Below are positions 14,681 to 19,446 of a stretch of DNA of 64,000 bases, piece by piece. Position 1 is the first letter of the stretch. Every line of letters starts with the position of its first letter. A program made the translations under genes and the position numbers. Source of the DNA: Chlorobaculum parvum NCIB 8327 (GTDB lineage: Bacteria > Bacteroidota > Chlorobiia > Chlorobiales > Chlorobiaceae); NCBI RefSeq assembly GCF_000020505.1, contig NC_011027.1, positions 46,001 through 110,000 on the forward strand, written 5' to 3'. The notes beneath the pieces were generated by a model. It was not told the DNA's origin. It searched no databases and saw nothing but the letters and a program-made list of their open reading frames with translations.

Positions 14681-16285
14681 TCAGTGCGCCGACGAGATGT
14701 CGGCTTTCTGCTTTTTGTCAACCCTGATGAAGAGCAACAGTGGCAGGCATATTGCAAACAGGATGGCGATCATCTTGAAGGCGTCCATGTATGCCAGGTG
14801 GTAGCTCTGGCGGACGACGATGCCTTCGAGCGCAGCCATCGCGGCCTGTCCTGCTTCGACTGGCGAACTCATGTACTGGCCAAGCGCCTGCTTCATACCC
14901 TGCAATCGCTGGACGGCGGCGGGGTCGTAGGGCGAGAGGTGGCTGAGAATGTCAAGGCGGTGCGCAGCCACTCGCTGGGCGACGTAGGTGTTGGTGATGG
15001 CGATGCCGAACGAACCGCCGAGCTGCCGTACCATGTTGTTCAGGCCGGTCGCCTGCCCAATATCCTTGCCGTGCAGTCCCGTGACGGCGAGCAGGGTGAC
15101 CGGAATGAAGATGAATCCGAGCGAGAGCCCACGGAGGAGCAGTATCAGAAAGAAGTTTTCTGCACCCGACATGAGCGTCTGGTTGCCCAGTTCCCAGCAG
15201 AACAAAAAGAATGTGGCCATGCCAACCGTCATCATCAGCTTCGGCGATGCTCCTTTCTGCAAAGCTATGCCGAGCGGCATAGAAATGATGCCGGTGAGCA
15301 TGGCGCTGGGAAAGAGCACCAGGCCGGTCAGCATTGCCGTGAAGCCCAGCAGGCGTTGCACGAAGACCGGAAAGACGAACAGTGAACCGTACAGCCCGAA
15401 GCCGACGATGAAAGTCAGAACGGCGGCGATGGCCAGGTTTTTGCTTCGCGCCAGCACGGAGAGGTCAACCGCCGGATGGTCGGTGTGCAGCTCCTGCCAG
15501 ACAAAAGCTATCAGTGATACCACCGCGATGATGGTGAACCAGACGATATAATCGGTCTCGAACCAGTCTTTCTGTTCGCCCCGTTCGAGTACGAACTGGA
15601 GTGAGCCGATACCGATGGCAAGCAGTCCGATGCCCGACCAGTCGATCTTCTGCACGGCGTGCTTGACCTTCGGTTCGGTAACGAAGGTGAGCGCCGCCCA
15701 CGCCGCCGCGATGCCGATCGGGATGTTCACGAAGAAGCACCATTCCCAGGCGAAATAGTCCACGAGGTAACCGCCAAGCAGCGGCCCGATGGTCGGGCCG
15801 AGCACCAGCCCCATCGAAAAGATGCCTGTCGCCGCGCCGCGATCCTCCGGCCTGAAGGTTTCGTAAAGGATCGCCTGTGAGGTGGGCAGCAGTCCTCCTC
15901 CGCCTATGCCTTGGATGAAGCGGAAGAAGACCAGCATCCAGATGTTGGTCGAGATGCCGCACAAAAACGAGGCGACCGTGAAGAGCACGATCGAGGCCAC
16001 GAAGTAGTTGCGGCGTCCGAACAGGTTGCCGAGAAATCCCGACAGCGGAATGACAATCACGTTGGCGATGGCGTAGCTCGTGACCACGTAGGAGACATCC
16101 TCGATGCTCGCGCCGAGGTTGCCGCTGATGTGGTTGATGGCCACGTTGACGATGGTGGTGTCGATCAGTTCGAGCATCGCCGCCACGATAACCGTTACCG
16201 TGATGATCCATTTTCTGGCCCCGGTTTCGTAATGGTGCTCCGGCGCGCGCGCGCCCGGTATGGCTGTTGCGGTACTTGACATCAC
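14681..16285 (-). CDS. emrB: MFS drug exporter, DHA2 (EmrB/QacA) group
   Basis: The 534-residue inner-membrane pump of a three-part efflux system. About 14 helices are expected, as in EmrB. The family opening LIDTTIVNVAINHISGNLG and the motif C-like GLVLGPTIGPLLGGYLVD are clear. NLFGRRNYF is the loop 2-3 motif. The start overlaps the stop of emrA by 4 bases, and it is the last gene of the operon tolC-usp-emrA-emrB. The cargo is not known; EmrB relatives expel hydrophobic toxins and uncouplers. Confidence 0.92.
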   Translation of the reverse strand: MMSSTATAIPGARAPEHHYETGARKWIITVTVIVAAMLELIDTTIVNVAINHISGNLGASIEDVSYVVTSYAIANVIVIPLSGFLGNLFGRRNYFVASIVLFTVASFLCGISTNIWMLVFFRFIQGIGGGGLLPTSQAILYETFRPEDRGAATGIFSMGLVLGPTIGPLLGGYLVDYFAWEWCFFVNIPIGIAAAWAALTFVTEPKVKHAVQKIDWSGIGLLAIGIGSLQFVLERGEQKDWFETDYIVWFTIIAVVSLIAFVWQELHTDHPAVDLSVLARSKNLAIAAVLTFIVGFGLYGSLFVFPVFVQRLLGFTAMLTGLVLFPSAMLTGIISMPLGIALQKGASPKLMMTVGMATFFLFCWELGNQTLMSGAENFFLILLLRGLSLGFIFIPVTLLAVTGLHGKDIGQATGLNNMVRQLGGSFGIAITNTYVAQRVAAHRLDILSHLSPYDPAAVQRLQGMKQALGQYMSSPVEAGQAAMAALEGIVVRQSYHLAYMDAFKMIAILFAICLPLLLFIRVDKKQKADISSAH

Positions 16286-17274
16286 TTCACCTTCACTTCT
16301 GCGATCACATTCATTCCGGCGGCAAGCGGCAGTTCGGGCTTTTCGTCGAAGACGATCTTGACCGGAACCCGCTGGGCCACTTTCACGAAGTTGCCGCTGG
16401 CGTTATCGGGCGGGAGCAGGGCGAACTGCGCGCCGGTTCCCGCAGAAATTGAGTCGATATGGCCTTTCAGCTCCTTGCCGGGGAAGGCATCGACTTTGAT
16501 GATCACCTTCTGGCCGGGGCGCATATGTTCGAGCTGGGTTTCCTTGAAGTTGGCCACCACCCAGAGTTCGTCGCTGCCGACAATGGCGATGAGCTGCTGG
16601 CCGGGCGAGACGAACTGGCCCGGTTGCACATTCTTTTTGGCGACCTGTCCGTCAGCCGGTGCGGTGACGGTTGTCCACGAAAGCATGAGCTCGGCGTTCT
16701 TCAGCTCGGCCTCGGCAAGCTTTTCCTGCGCAAGTGCGGCTTTGTACTGGTCTCCGGCTGCGGAGTGCTGGGCTGTCGAGGCTGTGGCGCCCGCCGTGAC
16801 AGCATCGAGTTCGGCGCGGGAGATCACATCCTGCTTCTGGAGGTTCCGGCTGCGGCGAAGGTCGGCATTGAGCTTGGTCTGGTTTGCGCCTGCAGCCACG
16901 ATTTCCGCCTTTGCCGCCGACACTGCGGCGCGCGCCCGGAGGAGCTGGGCCTGAGCCATGTCGCGCTTGACCAGATAGTCAGACTGGTCGATGGTCAGAA
17001 GCGTGTCGCCAGCCTTGACCATCTGGTTTGAATCAACCATCACGTCGAGCACGTTTCCGGGCACGCGGGGGCTGACCGGGTAGATGTCTCCGGTGATCTG
17101 GGCGTCGTCGGTCTCCTCATGGCTGAGCGAGTGAACGAATTCCATGCCGCCCCAGCCGAGGCCGATGGCGAGCAGGACACCGAAGATGGCCAGCCGAGGC
17201 CATGATTGCCCCTGCGGTCGTTTGTCGAGGGCATTCGCCGGTTTTTCGTGGTTTGATTGCTGCTGTTCTGACAT
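16282..17274 (-). CDS. emrA: Periplasmic adaptor, HlyD/EmrA family
   Basis: A 330-residue membrane fusion protein bridging the inner-membrane pump and the outer-membrane TolC channel. One N-terminal membrane helix lies at about residues 27-45 (AIFGVLLAIGLGWGGMEF). The split lipoyl domain follows (YPVSPRVPGNVLDVMVDSNQMVKAGDTLL, interrupted, then TVTAPADGQVAKKNVQPGQFV), with a long alpha-hairpin between the halves and a beta-barrel after. Length is usual for EmrA-type adaptors. It overlaps emrB by 4 bases and starts 6 bases after usp. Confidence 0.92.
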   Translation of the reverse strand: MSEQQQSNHEKPANALDKRPQGQSWPRLAIFGVLLAIGLGWGGMEFVHSLSHEETDDAQITGDIYPVSPRVPGNVLDVMVDSNQMVKAGDTLLTIDQSDYLVKRDMAQAQLLRARAAVSAAKAEIVAAGANQTKLNADLRRSRNLQKQDVISRAELDAVTAGATASTAQHSAAGDQYKAALAQEKLAEAELKNAELMLSWTTVTAPADGQVAKKNVQPGQFVSPGQQLIAIVGSDELWVVANFKETQLEHMRPGQKVIIKVDAFPGKELKGHIDSISAGTGAQFALLPPDNASGNFVKVAQRVPVKIVFDEKPELPLAAGMNVIAEVKVK

Positions 17275-17280
17275 TGATGT

Positions 17281-17763
17281 TCAATCGTTGGAGTTGGTCA
17301 ATACTTCGGTTTGCTCTTTCTGATGCGAGGTTTTTTCTCCATCGCGCTTCGGCGACCTGAGCACGAGTACCGGGCGCGTTGCCTGGCGCATCACCGCTTC
17401 GGCCGTGCTGCCGACCAGGAGCCGTCGGAAATCGCTTGCGCCGTGCGAGCCCATCACGATGAGGTCGGCATCGGCTTTTTCGGCGTATTCGATGATGGCT
17501 GCGGACGGCGTGCCGTACTCGACGGCGAAACGTACGCGGCATCCGTAGCCCGAAAGCAGGTCGGAGTAGCCTGAGAAGTTATGGAGGTGCTCCTTGAGCA
17601 TTGTGCCGTGATCGCCTGAGCCGGAGGCTCCGATATGCAGCACGATCAGCTCCGCGTTGCCTCCGCACTGCCCTGCGGCATGAAGCAGGGCCTGTGTCGA
17701 GGCGACAGAGAAGTCGGTCGGGCAGAGAATGGTTCTGGATGATTTCGCAACGGTATTTGTCAT
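17281..17763 (-). CDS. Universal stress protein (UspA family)
   Basis: The 160-residue cytoplasmic protein shows the Usp fold: TILCPTDFSVASTQAL at the N terminus, then IVMGSHGASDFRRLLVGSTAEAVM, which is the ATP-binding G-x2-G-x9-G(S/T) signature (GSHGAS...VGSTAE), and RPVLVLR at the end. It probably binds ATP. Its position inside an efflux operon, overlapping tolC by 4 bases, is unusual and suggests that the operon is part of a stress response. Confidence 0.9.
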   Translation of the reverse strand: MTNTVAKSSRTILCPTDFSVASTQALLHAAGQCGGNAELIVLHIGASGSGDHGTMLKEHLHNFSGYSDLLSGYGCRVRFAVEYGTPSAAIIEYAEKADADLIVMGSHGASDFRRLLVGSTAEAVMRQATRPVLVLRSPKRDGEKTSHQKEQTEVLTNSND

Positions 17764-19106
17764 GATCCTTTCTCCTGTTTTTGGGCGATCAGATCGCCAG
17801 AGGCGCGCCTGACGTCATAGGCGTTCAGTACATATTCATAACGGGCCTGCAGGTGGGCCAGCTCGGCTTCGGCCAGTGCCGCTTCGGCATCGAGCAGGTC
17901 GAGCGTGGTGGCAAGGCCGTTGTCGTAGCGGATTCGCGCGTGTTGCGCAGCGAGGTCGGCCTGTGAAACCTGAAGGCAGGTCGTTTCGATTTTCTGTTCG
18001 CTGCTTTTCAGGTCGTTGAGCGACTGGCGAATTTCGGCCTGCGCCATCTGCTCGGTATCGAGCTGCTGTTGCTCGGCGGAGCGTTTCATGGCGGCGGCTT
18101 CCCTCAGCGCGGCGCTTCTGCCGAAGCCGTCGAAGATCGGTACCTGCAATTCAACTCCGGCGGCAACGTTGGTGCGCATCTTGTCGATATCGGGCATGTA
18201 GCCGTTGGCCGTGCCCCACGAGGCGCTGCCTACGATTTTCGGCAGGAACTCCTTGCCGGCCAGCGATTTTTTGTATGAGGCCGCCTTGAGGTTTTCGCGG
18301 GCGAGCATCAGCTCCGGACGCTGCTCCAGCGCTGCGGCTGCAAGGCGGTTGGCGTCCTTGTCGGCCACCGTGATGTCGAACGAGCCGCTCAGGTTCAGCG
18401 GAGCCTGCTCGTCGAGGCCGCAAAGACGGCGCAAGGCAATTTCCTGATTGTGCAGCTGCGTTTCGTAATCGATCTTGCGATTTCCGGCAGCGGCGAGACG
18501 CACCTGGGTGGTCAGCAGGTCGAAACGGGTCGCGGCCCCTTCATCGTAGCGTTTCTGCATGTGATCGAGGTTTTTCTGCAGGGCGTCGATCTCCTTCTGC
18601 TGCACGCTGACCGCCTCCTGGAGGAACAGCACCGAGTAGAAGGCCCGGATGGTGGCCAGCGAAAGATCGCGCAGGGTGATCTCCTGCCGGATGCCCGCCG
18701 AGTTGCGTCCGGCCTTGGCCAGATCGACCGTGCGGCCTGTGCGTCCGAAATCGTACAGCATCATTTCGGCGGTGACGCGCGCGTCGTAGTTGTCGTTCGG
18801 TACGAACTGGATGGTGGCGCCGCCGAAATTTGCCTCGGCGACCGGATCCAGGTAGCGGTAGCCGGCGCTTGCGGACAGATGCGGGAAGTAGCCGCTGCGT
18901 CCCCGGGTGACCTGCGCATCGGCAGCCTTGACCTCCTCGACAGCCTGCAAGGCTCGCGGATTGTGCTCGCGGGTCATGCGCAGCGCCTCGTCCAGCGTGA
19001 TCGGTTCAGATGTTGCCGGGGCTATCTCCTCAGCGCGGAGCGGCTGCGCCGTCGTCATCACTGCGGCGATCAGGAGGAGGGTGGCAATGGATTTGTTGTG
19101 CTTCAT
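17760..19106 (-). CDS. TolC-family outer membrane efflux channel
   Basis: A 448-residue outer membrane factor. The signal peptide (residues 1-24, ending near LRAEE) is followed by two OEP repeats rich in long helices; LDEALRMTREHNPRAL opens the first repeat and the second contains LMLARENLKAAS. The frame is open to 19217, but only the ATG at 19106 precedes a signal peptide. It is the first gene of the leftward operon tolC-usp-emrA-emrB; all junctions overlap or lie within 6 bases. A sigma-54-type promoter candidate lies about 200 bases upstream. Confidence 0.9.
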   Translation of the reverse strand: MKHNKSIATLLLIAAVMTTAQPLRAEEIAPATSEPITLDEALRMTREHNPRALQAVEEVKAADAQVTRGRSGYFPHLSASAGYRYLDPVAEANFGGATIQFVPNDNYDARVTAEMMLYDFGRTGRTVDLAKAGRNSAGIRQEITLRDLSLATIRAFYSVLFLQEAVSVQQKEIDALQKNLDHMQKRYDEGAATRFDLLTTQVRLAAAGNRKIDYETQLHNQEIALRRLCGLDEQAPLNLSGSFDITVADKDANRLAAAALEQRPELMLARENLKAASYKKSLAGKEFLPKIVGSASWGTANGYMPDIDKMRTNVAAGVELQVPIFDGFGRSAALREAAAMKRSAEQQQLDTEQMAQAEIRQSLNDLKSSEQKIETTCLQVSQADLAAQHARIRYDNGLATTLDLLDAEAALAEAELAHLQARYEYVLNAYDVRRASGDLIAQKQEKGS

Positions 19107-19308
19107 AGATTTGAACAATTCCTGTGTTGGTCGGTCAAATGTTCTCTTTTCATTGGAACCGTTATCGGGATCGACATGGTTCTGGTCCGGCGCCGATCCC
19201 GATTTCGATTCTTTCATCGTTCGTTTTGCATTTTCATCGTGTAGTCTTCTGAGGCAGTGCCGCTTCTTTGCCGGGCAGCCTCGATCAGCATGGTATCAAG
19301 GTTTATTC

Positions 19309-19324
19309 ATCAATTATCGTGCCA
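19309..19324 (-). promoter_or_regulatory. Candidate sigma-54 (-24/-12) promoter of the efflux operon
   Basis: Read leftward, TGGCACG (19324 down to 19318) is followed by four bases and TTGAT (19313 to 19309). The consensus is TGGCACG-N4-TTGCW, so the -24 half is perfect and the -12 half has one mismatch, at the conserved GC. Transcription would begin near 19299, about 190 bases before tolC. The gene on the other side encodes a sigma-54 activator and its likely binding sites sit at about -98 and -131, the normal place for enhancer sites. Confidence 0.5.
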
Positions 19325-19388
19325 GTTGTCGATTTTGCCTGTAGGCCCTGCTTTTCAAGGCTTTGAGCTTGTTATTTATTTCTTGTTT

Positions 19389-19405
19389 TTCTGAAAATTT
19401 CAGAA
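19389..19405. promoter_or_regulatory. Operator palindrome 1 (TTCTGA-N5-TCAGAA)
   Basis: This 17-base inverted repeat has a perfect dyad of ten bases per arm when the flanks are included (TTTTCTGAAA / TTTCAGAAAA around one base). The same TTCTGA-N5-TCAGAA pattern recurs 33 bases to the right. Confidence 0.65.
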
Positions 19406-19421
19406 AATTCTCTTAACTTCC

Positions 19422-19438
19422 TTCTGAATAAATCAGAA
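19422..19438. promoter_or_regulatory. Operator palindrome 2 (TTCTGA-N5-TCAGAA)
   Basis: This is the second copy, identical in both arms and different in the five central bases. The two centres are 33 bp apart, close to three helical turns, so bound proteins would lie on the same face of the DNA. It ends 8 bases before the regulator start codon and covers its ribosome-binding region, which would allow autoregulation. Confidence 0.65.
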
Positions 19439-19446
19439 AATCAGCT

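Follow-up and report, generated by a model that had tools for sequence, protein, structure and literature searches.

The window, a 64,000-nucleotide stretch of the Chlorobaculum parvum NCIB 8327 chromosome, contains two divergently transcribed units: a gene encoding a predicted sigma-54-dependent enhancer-binding protein and, facing away from it, an operon for a tripartite efflux pump that also includes a universal stress protein gene (Table 1). The region between them holds two palindromes, a conserved half-site and a putative -24/-12 promoter element. Both palindromes and the leftward element lie where a first-pass annotation, made from the letters alone, had placed them, and the 33 bp that it gave as the distance between the palindromes is what is seen in the window, start to start.

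Table 1. Features of the divergent regulator-pump locus, in window coordinates.
Feature	Coordinates	Strand	Remarks
emrB-like DHA2 MFS permease	14681..16285	-	TIGR00711 above cut-off
emrA-like periplasmic adaptor	16282..17274	-	HlyD family
usp, universal stress protein family	17281..17763	-	
tolC-like outer membrane efflux protein	17760..19106	-	signal-peptide start 19106; ORF reaches 19217
GC-rich 13-bp hairpin in the long tolC leader	19164..19203	-	z -2.7 for the leader
Sigma-54 -24/-12 promoter element TGGCACGATAATTGAT, facing tolC	19309..19324	-	
Palindrome 1, TTCTGAAAATTTCAGAA	19389..19405	none	predicted activator site
Middle half-site	19408..19412	+	TTCTC in the window, TTCTG in most relatives
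Palindrome 2, TTCTGAATAAATCAGAA	19422..19438	none	predicted activator site, close to the regulator's start
Regulator gene, enhancer-binding protein of 701 aa	19447..21552	+	GAF - GAF-like - AAA+ (GSFTGA) - Fis-type HTH

The leftward order tolC-usp-emrA-emrB, as first annotated, is confirmed by family models, which identify an OEP/TolC protein, a Usp protein, an EmrA-like HlyD protein and EmrB. The permease scores 409.8 bits against TIGR00711 (cut-off 230.2); the adaptor (TIGR00998, 226 bits) and the outer membrane protein (TIGR01844, 187 bits) stay under the cut-offs of those models (390.8 and 225, respectively) and are well above the cut-offs of the general Pfam HlyD and OEP models. For tolC, the start at 19106 rather than 19217 is most likely, based on the signal-peptide start and its alignment with relatives. 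The gene order is kept in all relatives with long enough contigs, except that usp was undetected at two loci (L028 and L042).

The regulator carries an AAA+ sigma-54 activation domain (PF00158, E 2.9e-73) and, at its C-terminus, a Fis-type HTH (PF02954, residues 650-692, E 2.9e-5, above cut-off). In all 35 of the 35 proteins examined the loop motif GAFTGA is replaced by GSFTGA, a listed variant with activity kept (PMC4641369). The domain order GAF-GAF-AAA+-Fis proposed in the first-pass annotation holds for the GAF, AAA+ and Fis parts; the second GAF is without a Pfam match in the window regulator, has weak Pfam GAF matches in some orthologues and appears as a GAF-like fold in a predicted structure model, which was used for the GAF part only, its AAA+ region being poor (mean pLDDT 63). 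Among the NCBIfam models the FhlA equivalog is the best match to the window regulator, with 425.9 bits far under its cut-off of 830, and the NorR equivalog, with 370.5 bits, is likewise under its cut-off of 476. PDB entry 3K2N is titled as a sigma-54-dependent regulator domain from Chlorobium tepidum TLS. It matches the orthologue at the C. tepidum locus (L051) without a difference over 174 residues and is the N-terminal GAF of that protein, so a structure of the sensor domain exists and a structural-genomics orphan gains a likely job.

Exact copies of TTCTGA-N5-TCAGAA occur twice in the whole 2,289,249-bp genome, both at this locus, and nine one-mismatch copies lie elsewhere. In the 64-kb window alone, six matches with at most two mismatches compare with a mean of 2.95, which is unremarkable; judged on the sequence, the weight of the palindrome evidence is in exactness, pairing and conservation, and not in the count of loose matches in the window.

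Conservation was assessed by anchoring the upstream regions of 40 Chlorobiaceae loci on the paired sites, and two contig-limited loci were dropped to leave 38 usable ones. All 38 have TTC-N11-GAA at both positions with a spacing of always 33 bp, or about three helical turns, and in 37 of the 38 the block TGGCAYR-N4-TTG faces tolC at 60-92 bp from palindrome 1, against a chance expectation of 0.016 from Markov-resampled sequence; the loci are mutually related, and such counts overstate the independent evidence. Within the anchored alignment, the outer TTC and GAA of the palindromes are invariant or nearly so and the centre is variable. In a less-redundant set of 27 loci, pairwise identity averages 0.79 for palindrome 1, 0.71 for palindrome 2 and 0.74 for the promoter block, compared with 0.27-0.39 for the spacer and flanks, which indicates that three islands are kept while the DNA between them drifts. 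The spacers fall into length classes of 64-65, 73-76 and 83-88 bp, apart from one outlier of 175 bp (L011) outside the helical series, and these classes, behind which stand only about three or four independent length changes, are consistent with changes by whole turns and a retained helical phase. Conservation in orthologous regions, which the first-pass annotation had proposed as a check on its reading, is thus found for both palindromes; the divergent regulator-pump gene pair is conserved throughout the Chlorobiaceae, and the palindrome pair recurs beside the regulator across the genus.

Between the palindromes, a further half-site (TTCTG, offset 19) is conserved about as well as the palindromes themselves across the 40 anchored loci, with 1.8-2.0 bits in alignment columns 19-21. 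A third dimer site of the NorR type was considered here and is not supported, because only this left half is conserved, with no right half. In the same segment (19406-19421 in the window), a GT ahead of palindrome 2 is also kept across relatives.

The element facing tolC has the -24 GG, the correct spacing and the -13 G of the consensus TGGCACG-N4-TTGC, and differs from it at the -12 C, which is an A here (TTGAT, not TTGC). Across the 40 loci this base is C in 25, T in nine and A in six, and the C. tepidum locus and other relatives likewise have TTGAT. Placing -12 at 19310 predicts a transcription start near 19298 and centres the palindromes at about -99 and -132, in agreement with the earlier estimate of about -98 and -131. 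A sigma-54 gene, the absence of which would, according to the first-pass annotation, have spoken against its interpretation, is present in the genome (rpoN; PF04552, E 5.1e-57). The genome also contains a canonical sigma-54 site, TGGCACACCAATTGCA, ahead of nifH (G000:C1:1770047-1770062), which means that normal sigma-54 promoters exist in this organism. Close to the nifH site is the gene of another enhancer-binding protein, presumably nifA. Another canonical sigma-54-like site (G000:C1:1274221-1274236) is found about 50 bp upstream of an ORF of 309 aa that has no match in Pfam or NCBIfam.

The sequence ahead of the regulator gene departs in one respect from what had been suggested. In the window, palindrome 2 lies 8 bp from the start codon of the regulator, and it had been thought to cover the ribosome-binding region; no AGGA-type site is found in the window from palindrome 2 to the ATG, and the overlap is not conserved, since the regulator starts tens of bases further downstream in several relatives. 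In a search for sigma-70 promoters of the regulator, a TATAAT between the two sites is conspicuous only in loci of the Chlorobium side, where the regulator transcript would consequently start inside palindrome 2. As a basis for autoregulation, an overlap of the operator with a sigma-70 promoter of the regulator is, we infer, better than one with a ribosome-binding site, and control of the gene through such operator overlap is plausible.

Taken as a whole, the locus is best read as a dedicated one-component sigma-54 switch for the tripartite drug exporter encoded by tolC-usp-emrA-emrB, operated by a NorR/FhlA-like activator, and we give this reading, drawn from comparative sequence analysis, a probability of roughly 85%. 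In the proposed model, activator dimers would bind the two palindromes, perhaps with help from the middle half-site, and seed a hexamer. The GAF sensor domains would keep the AAA+ motor inactive until they bind a ligand, a small molecule that is probably a pump substrate. The active ring would then reach the sigma-54 polymerase at the -24/-12 element, about 100-130 bp away, by DNA looping, and its use of ATP would open the tolC-usp-emrA-emrB promoter. With operator sites that span the expected transcription start of the regulator, the protein would probably also limit its own synthesis. The operator and promoter architecture, the pairing of regulator and pump and the presence of sigma-54 are supported by comparative sequence analysis; binding to DNA, loop formation, GAF-mediated repression and autoregulation would apply here by analogy with enhancer-binding proteins in general. 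This broadly upholds the interpretation put forward at first, with the conserved palindromes, the conserved divergent pair, an exact palindrome pair unique in the genome and rpoN all on its side. Points that speak against it are the A or T in place of the -12 C in 15 of the 40 loci, the 175-bp spacer of L011 and the poor -12 part in two more distant Bacteroidota (G138 and G208).

Three other explanations were weighed. The palindromes could serve only as operators for autorepression of the regulator gene, with the pump on an unrelated promoter, and the closeness of palindrome 2 to the regulator ATG, together with the consensus TATAAT between the sites in Chlorobium-side loci, would fit this; we nevertheless think it unlikely, as it leaves unexplained both the -24/-12 element that faces tolC at near-fixed helical spacing in nearly all loci and the presence of an AAA+ domain of the activator type whose GSFTGA loop is intact. 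That some other regulator binds the palindromes while the enhancer-binding protein acts elsewhere appears very unlikely: one-mismatch sites do exist elsewhere in the genome, but no further regulator gene is seen at the locus, exact sites are confined to it in the window genome and the pair recurs next to this regulator in relatives, and paralogous regulators have similar site pairs by their own genes. As inverted repeats, the palindromes might also be taken for RNA or DNA hairpins acting as a terminator or attenuator and not as protein sites, an explanation to which we attach hardly any probability, given that the sites are short and A+T-rich, vary at the centre and are conserved mainly at TTC and GAA, that they are paired at exactly 33 bp and that they coincide with the predicted transcription starts or lie upstream of them.

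Several known systems can be set beside this one. The E. coli EmrAB-TolC pump has the same kinds of parts, namely a DHA2 permease, an EmrA-like adaptor and a TolC-like channel, whereas here a single operon encodes all of them plus Usp and is under a predicted sigma-54 activator. Classical emrAB is under the MarR-type repressor EmrR, and for drug pumps the usual description is of control by a local repressor or a global activator. Switching by sigma-54 needs an ATP-driven activator and would leave the pump almost without basal expression. For the mechanism of the regulator, the closest worked example is NorR of E. coli, which is also a one-component, receiver-less GAF activator with a divergent target operon (norVW), multiple intergenic enhancer sites and a sigma-54 promoter. 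NorR requires three enhancer sites (PMC2941729) and has one GAF domain, in contrast to the two full sites plus a half-site, the two GAF-like domains and the drug exporter target seen here. FhlA shares the N-terminal GAF-type sensor region, the AAA+ and Fis HTH domains and the length of about 690-700 aa; its targets differ and the best-matching stretch is the C-terminal half. Local sigma-54 regulators identified by comparative genomics in Desulfovibrio (PMC4641369) are likewise one-component proteins that adjoin their target operons, and these operons have palindromes upstream and -24/-12 promoters that are conserved, but the words efflux and TolC are absent from that paper.

Neither receiver-less GAF activators nor local sigma-54 regulons are new as such; what may be new is the predicted dedication of a sigma-54 activator to an EmrAB-TolC-type drug pump. 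No description of such a pair was found in the full-text literature covered, which included few subscription journals; efflux is not mentioned in a Geobacter RpoN paper, and the same literature yielded neither a regulon study in green sulfur bacteria nor a map of transcription starts for the locus. The earlier remark that sigma-54 control of an EmrAB-TolC pump is unusual fits this picture. For green sulfur bacteria, the model would give sigma-54 a role besides the site at nifH, and it offers a compact, testable set of regulator, operator and promoter for which an inducer could be screened.

Almost every Chlorobiaceae genome that was searched has the regulator, and regulator and pump are largely present or absent together. 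Three Chlorobiaceae genomes (G028, G074 and G083) lack both a full regulator match and the pump permease; in three others with the pump (G034, G035 and G051) the contig stops at tolC or breaks within the regulator gene, and one more (G005) has the pump on a truncated stretch without a full regulator match. Both regulator and pump are absent from the sampled members of other families of the order, with the exception of one genome (G063), where a regulator that is 43% identical is divergent from genes for TolC, HlyD, a polyketide-cyclase-like protein, an ABC ATPase and an ABC-2 permease, with TTCC-N10-GGAA sites and a TGGCACG-N4-TTGA element. In two other Bacteroidota (G138 and G208; L138 and L139), a regulator of about 45% identity is divergent from a complete tolC-usp-emrA-emrB set, and long inverted repeats of the TTCCTGA type are present. 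In these two genomes the block that faces tolC is TGGCACA, with no convincing -12 after it, and control of the pump may differ from that in the Chlorobiaceae.

Paralogous or distant regulators are found next to other exporters: in G018 such a gene is divergent from usp, an HlyD adaptor and an RbbA-like ABC protein, in G019 the regulator lies beside an outer-membrane barrel gene and a tolC-usp-HlyD-ABC cluster, each with its own -24/-12 element, and in G001 usp alone is the neighbour. These neighbourhoods suggest that the regulator family tracks exporters, often with usp alongside. A broader proposal, to which we give even odds, is that these proteins form a family of tandem-GAF sigma-54 activators, not described before and specialised in exporters, that is, a portable sigma-54 drug-export module of green sulfur bacteria and some other Bacteroidota, paired with MFS EmrAB, RbbA-like or other ABC-2 pumps and often with usp, the product of which may take part in sensing or response. 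Regulator paralogues or distant homologues at loci L133, L134, L136 and L127 have usp and ABC-type exporters as neighbours, and the palindromes and -24/-12 elements there are similar.

The tolC leader varies among relatives. In most of them the tolC ATG is a few tens of bases from the -24/-12 element; the leader in the window is about 190 nt, owing to an insertion. The hairpin within it is present in the window and in close lineages, and probably is not part of the conserved circuit. Its identification as a dispersed repeat was rejected, as it occurs in a single copy in the genome. At another locus (L015), the corresponding region of the tolC leader contains an insert that resembles a dispersed repeat (CCTGTCATTCTGAATGAAG...).
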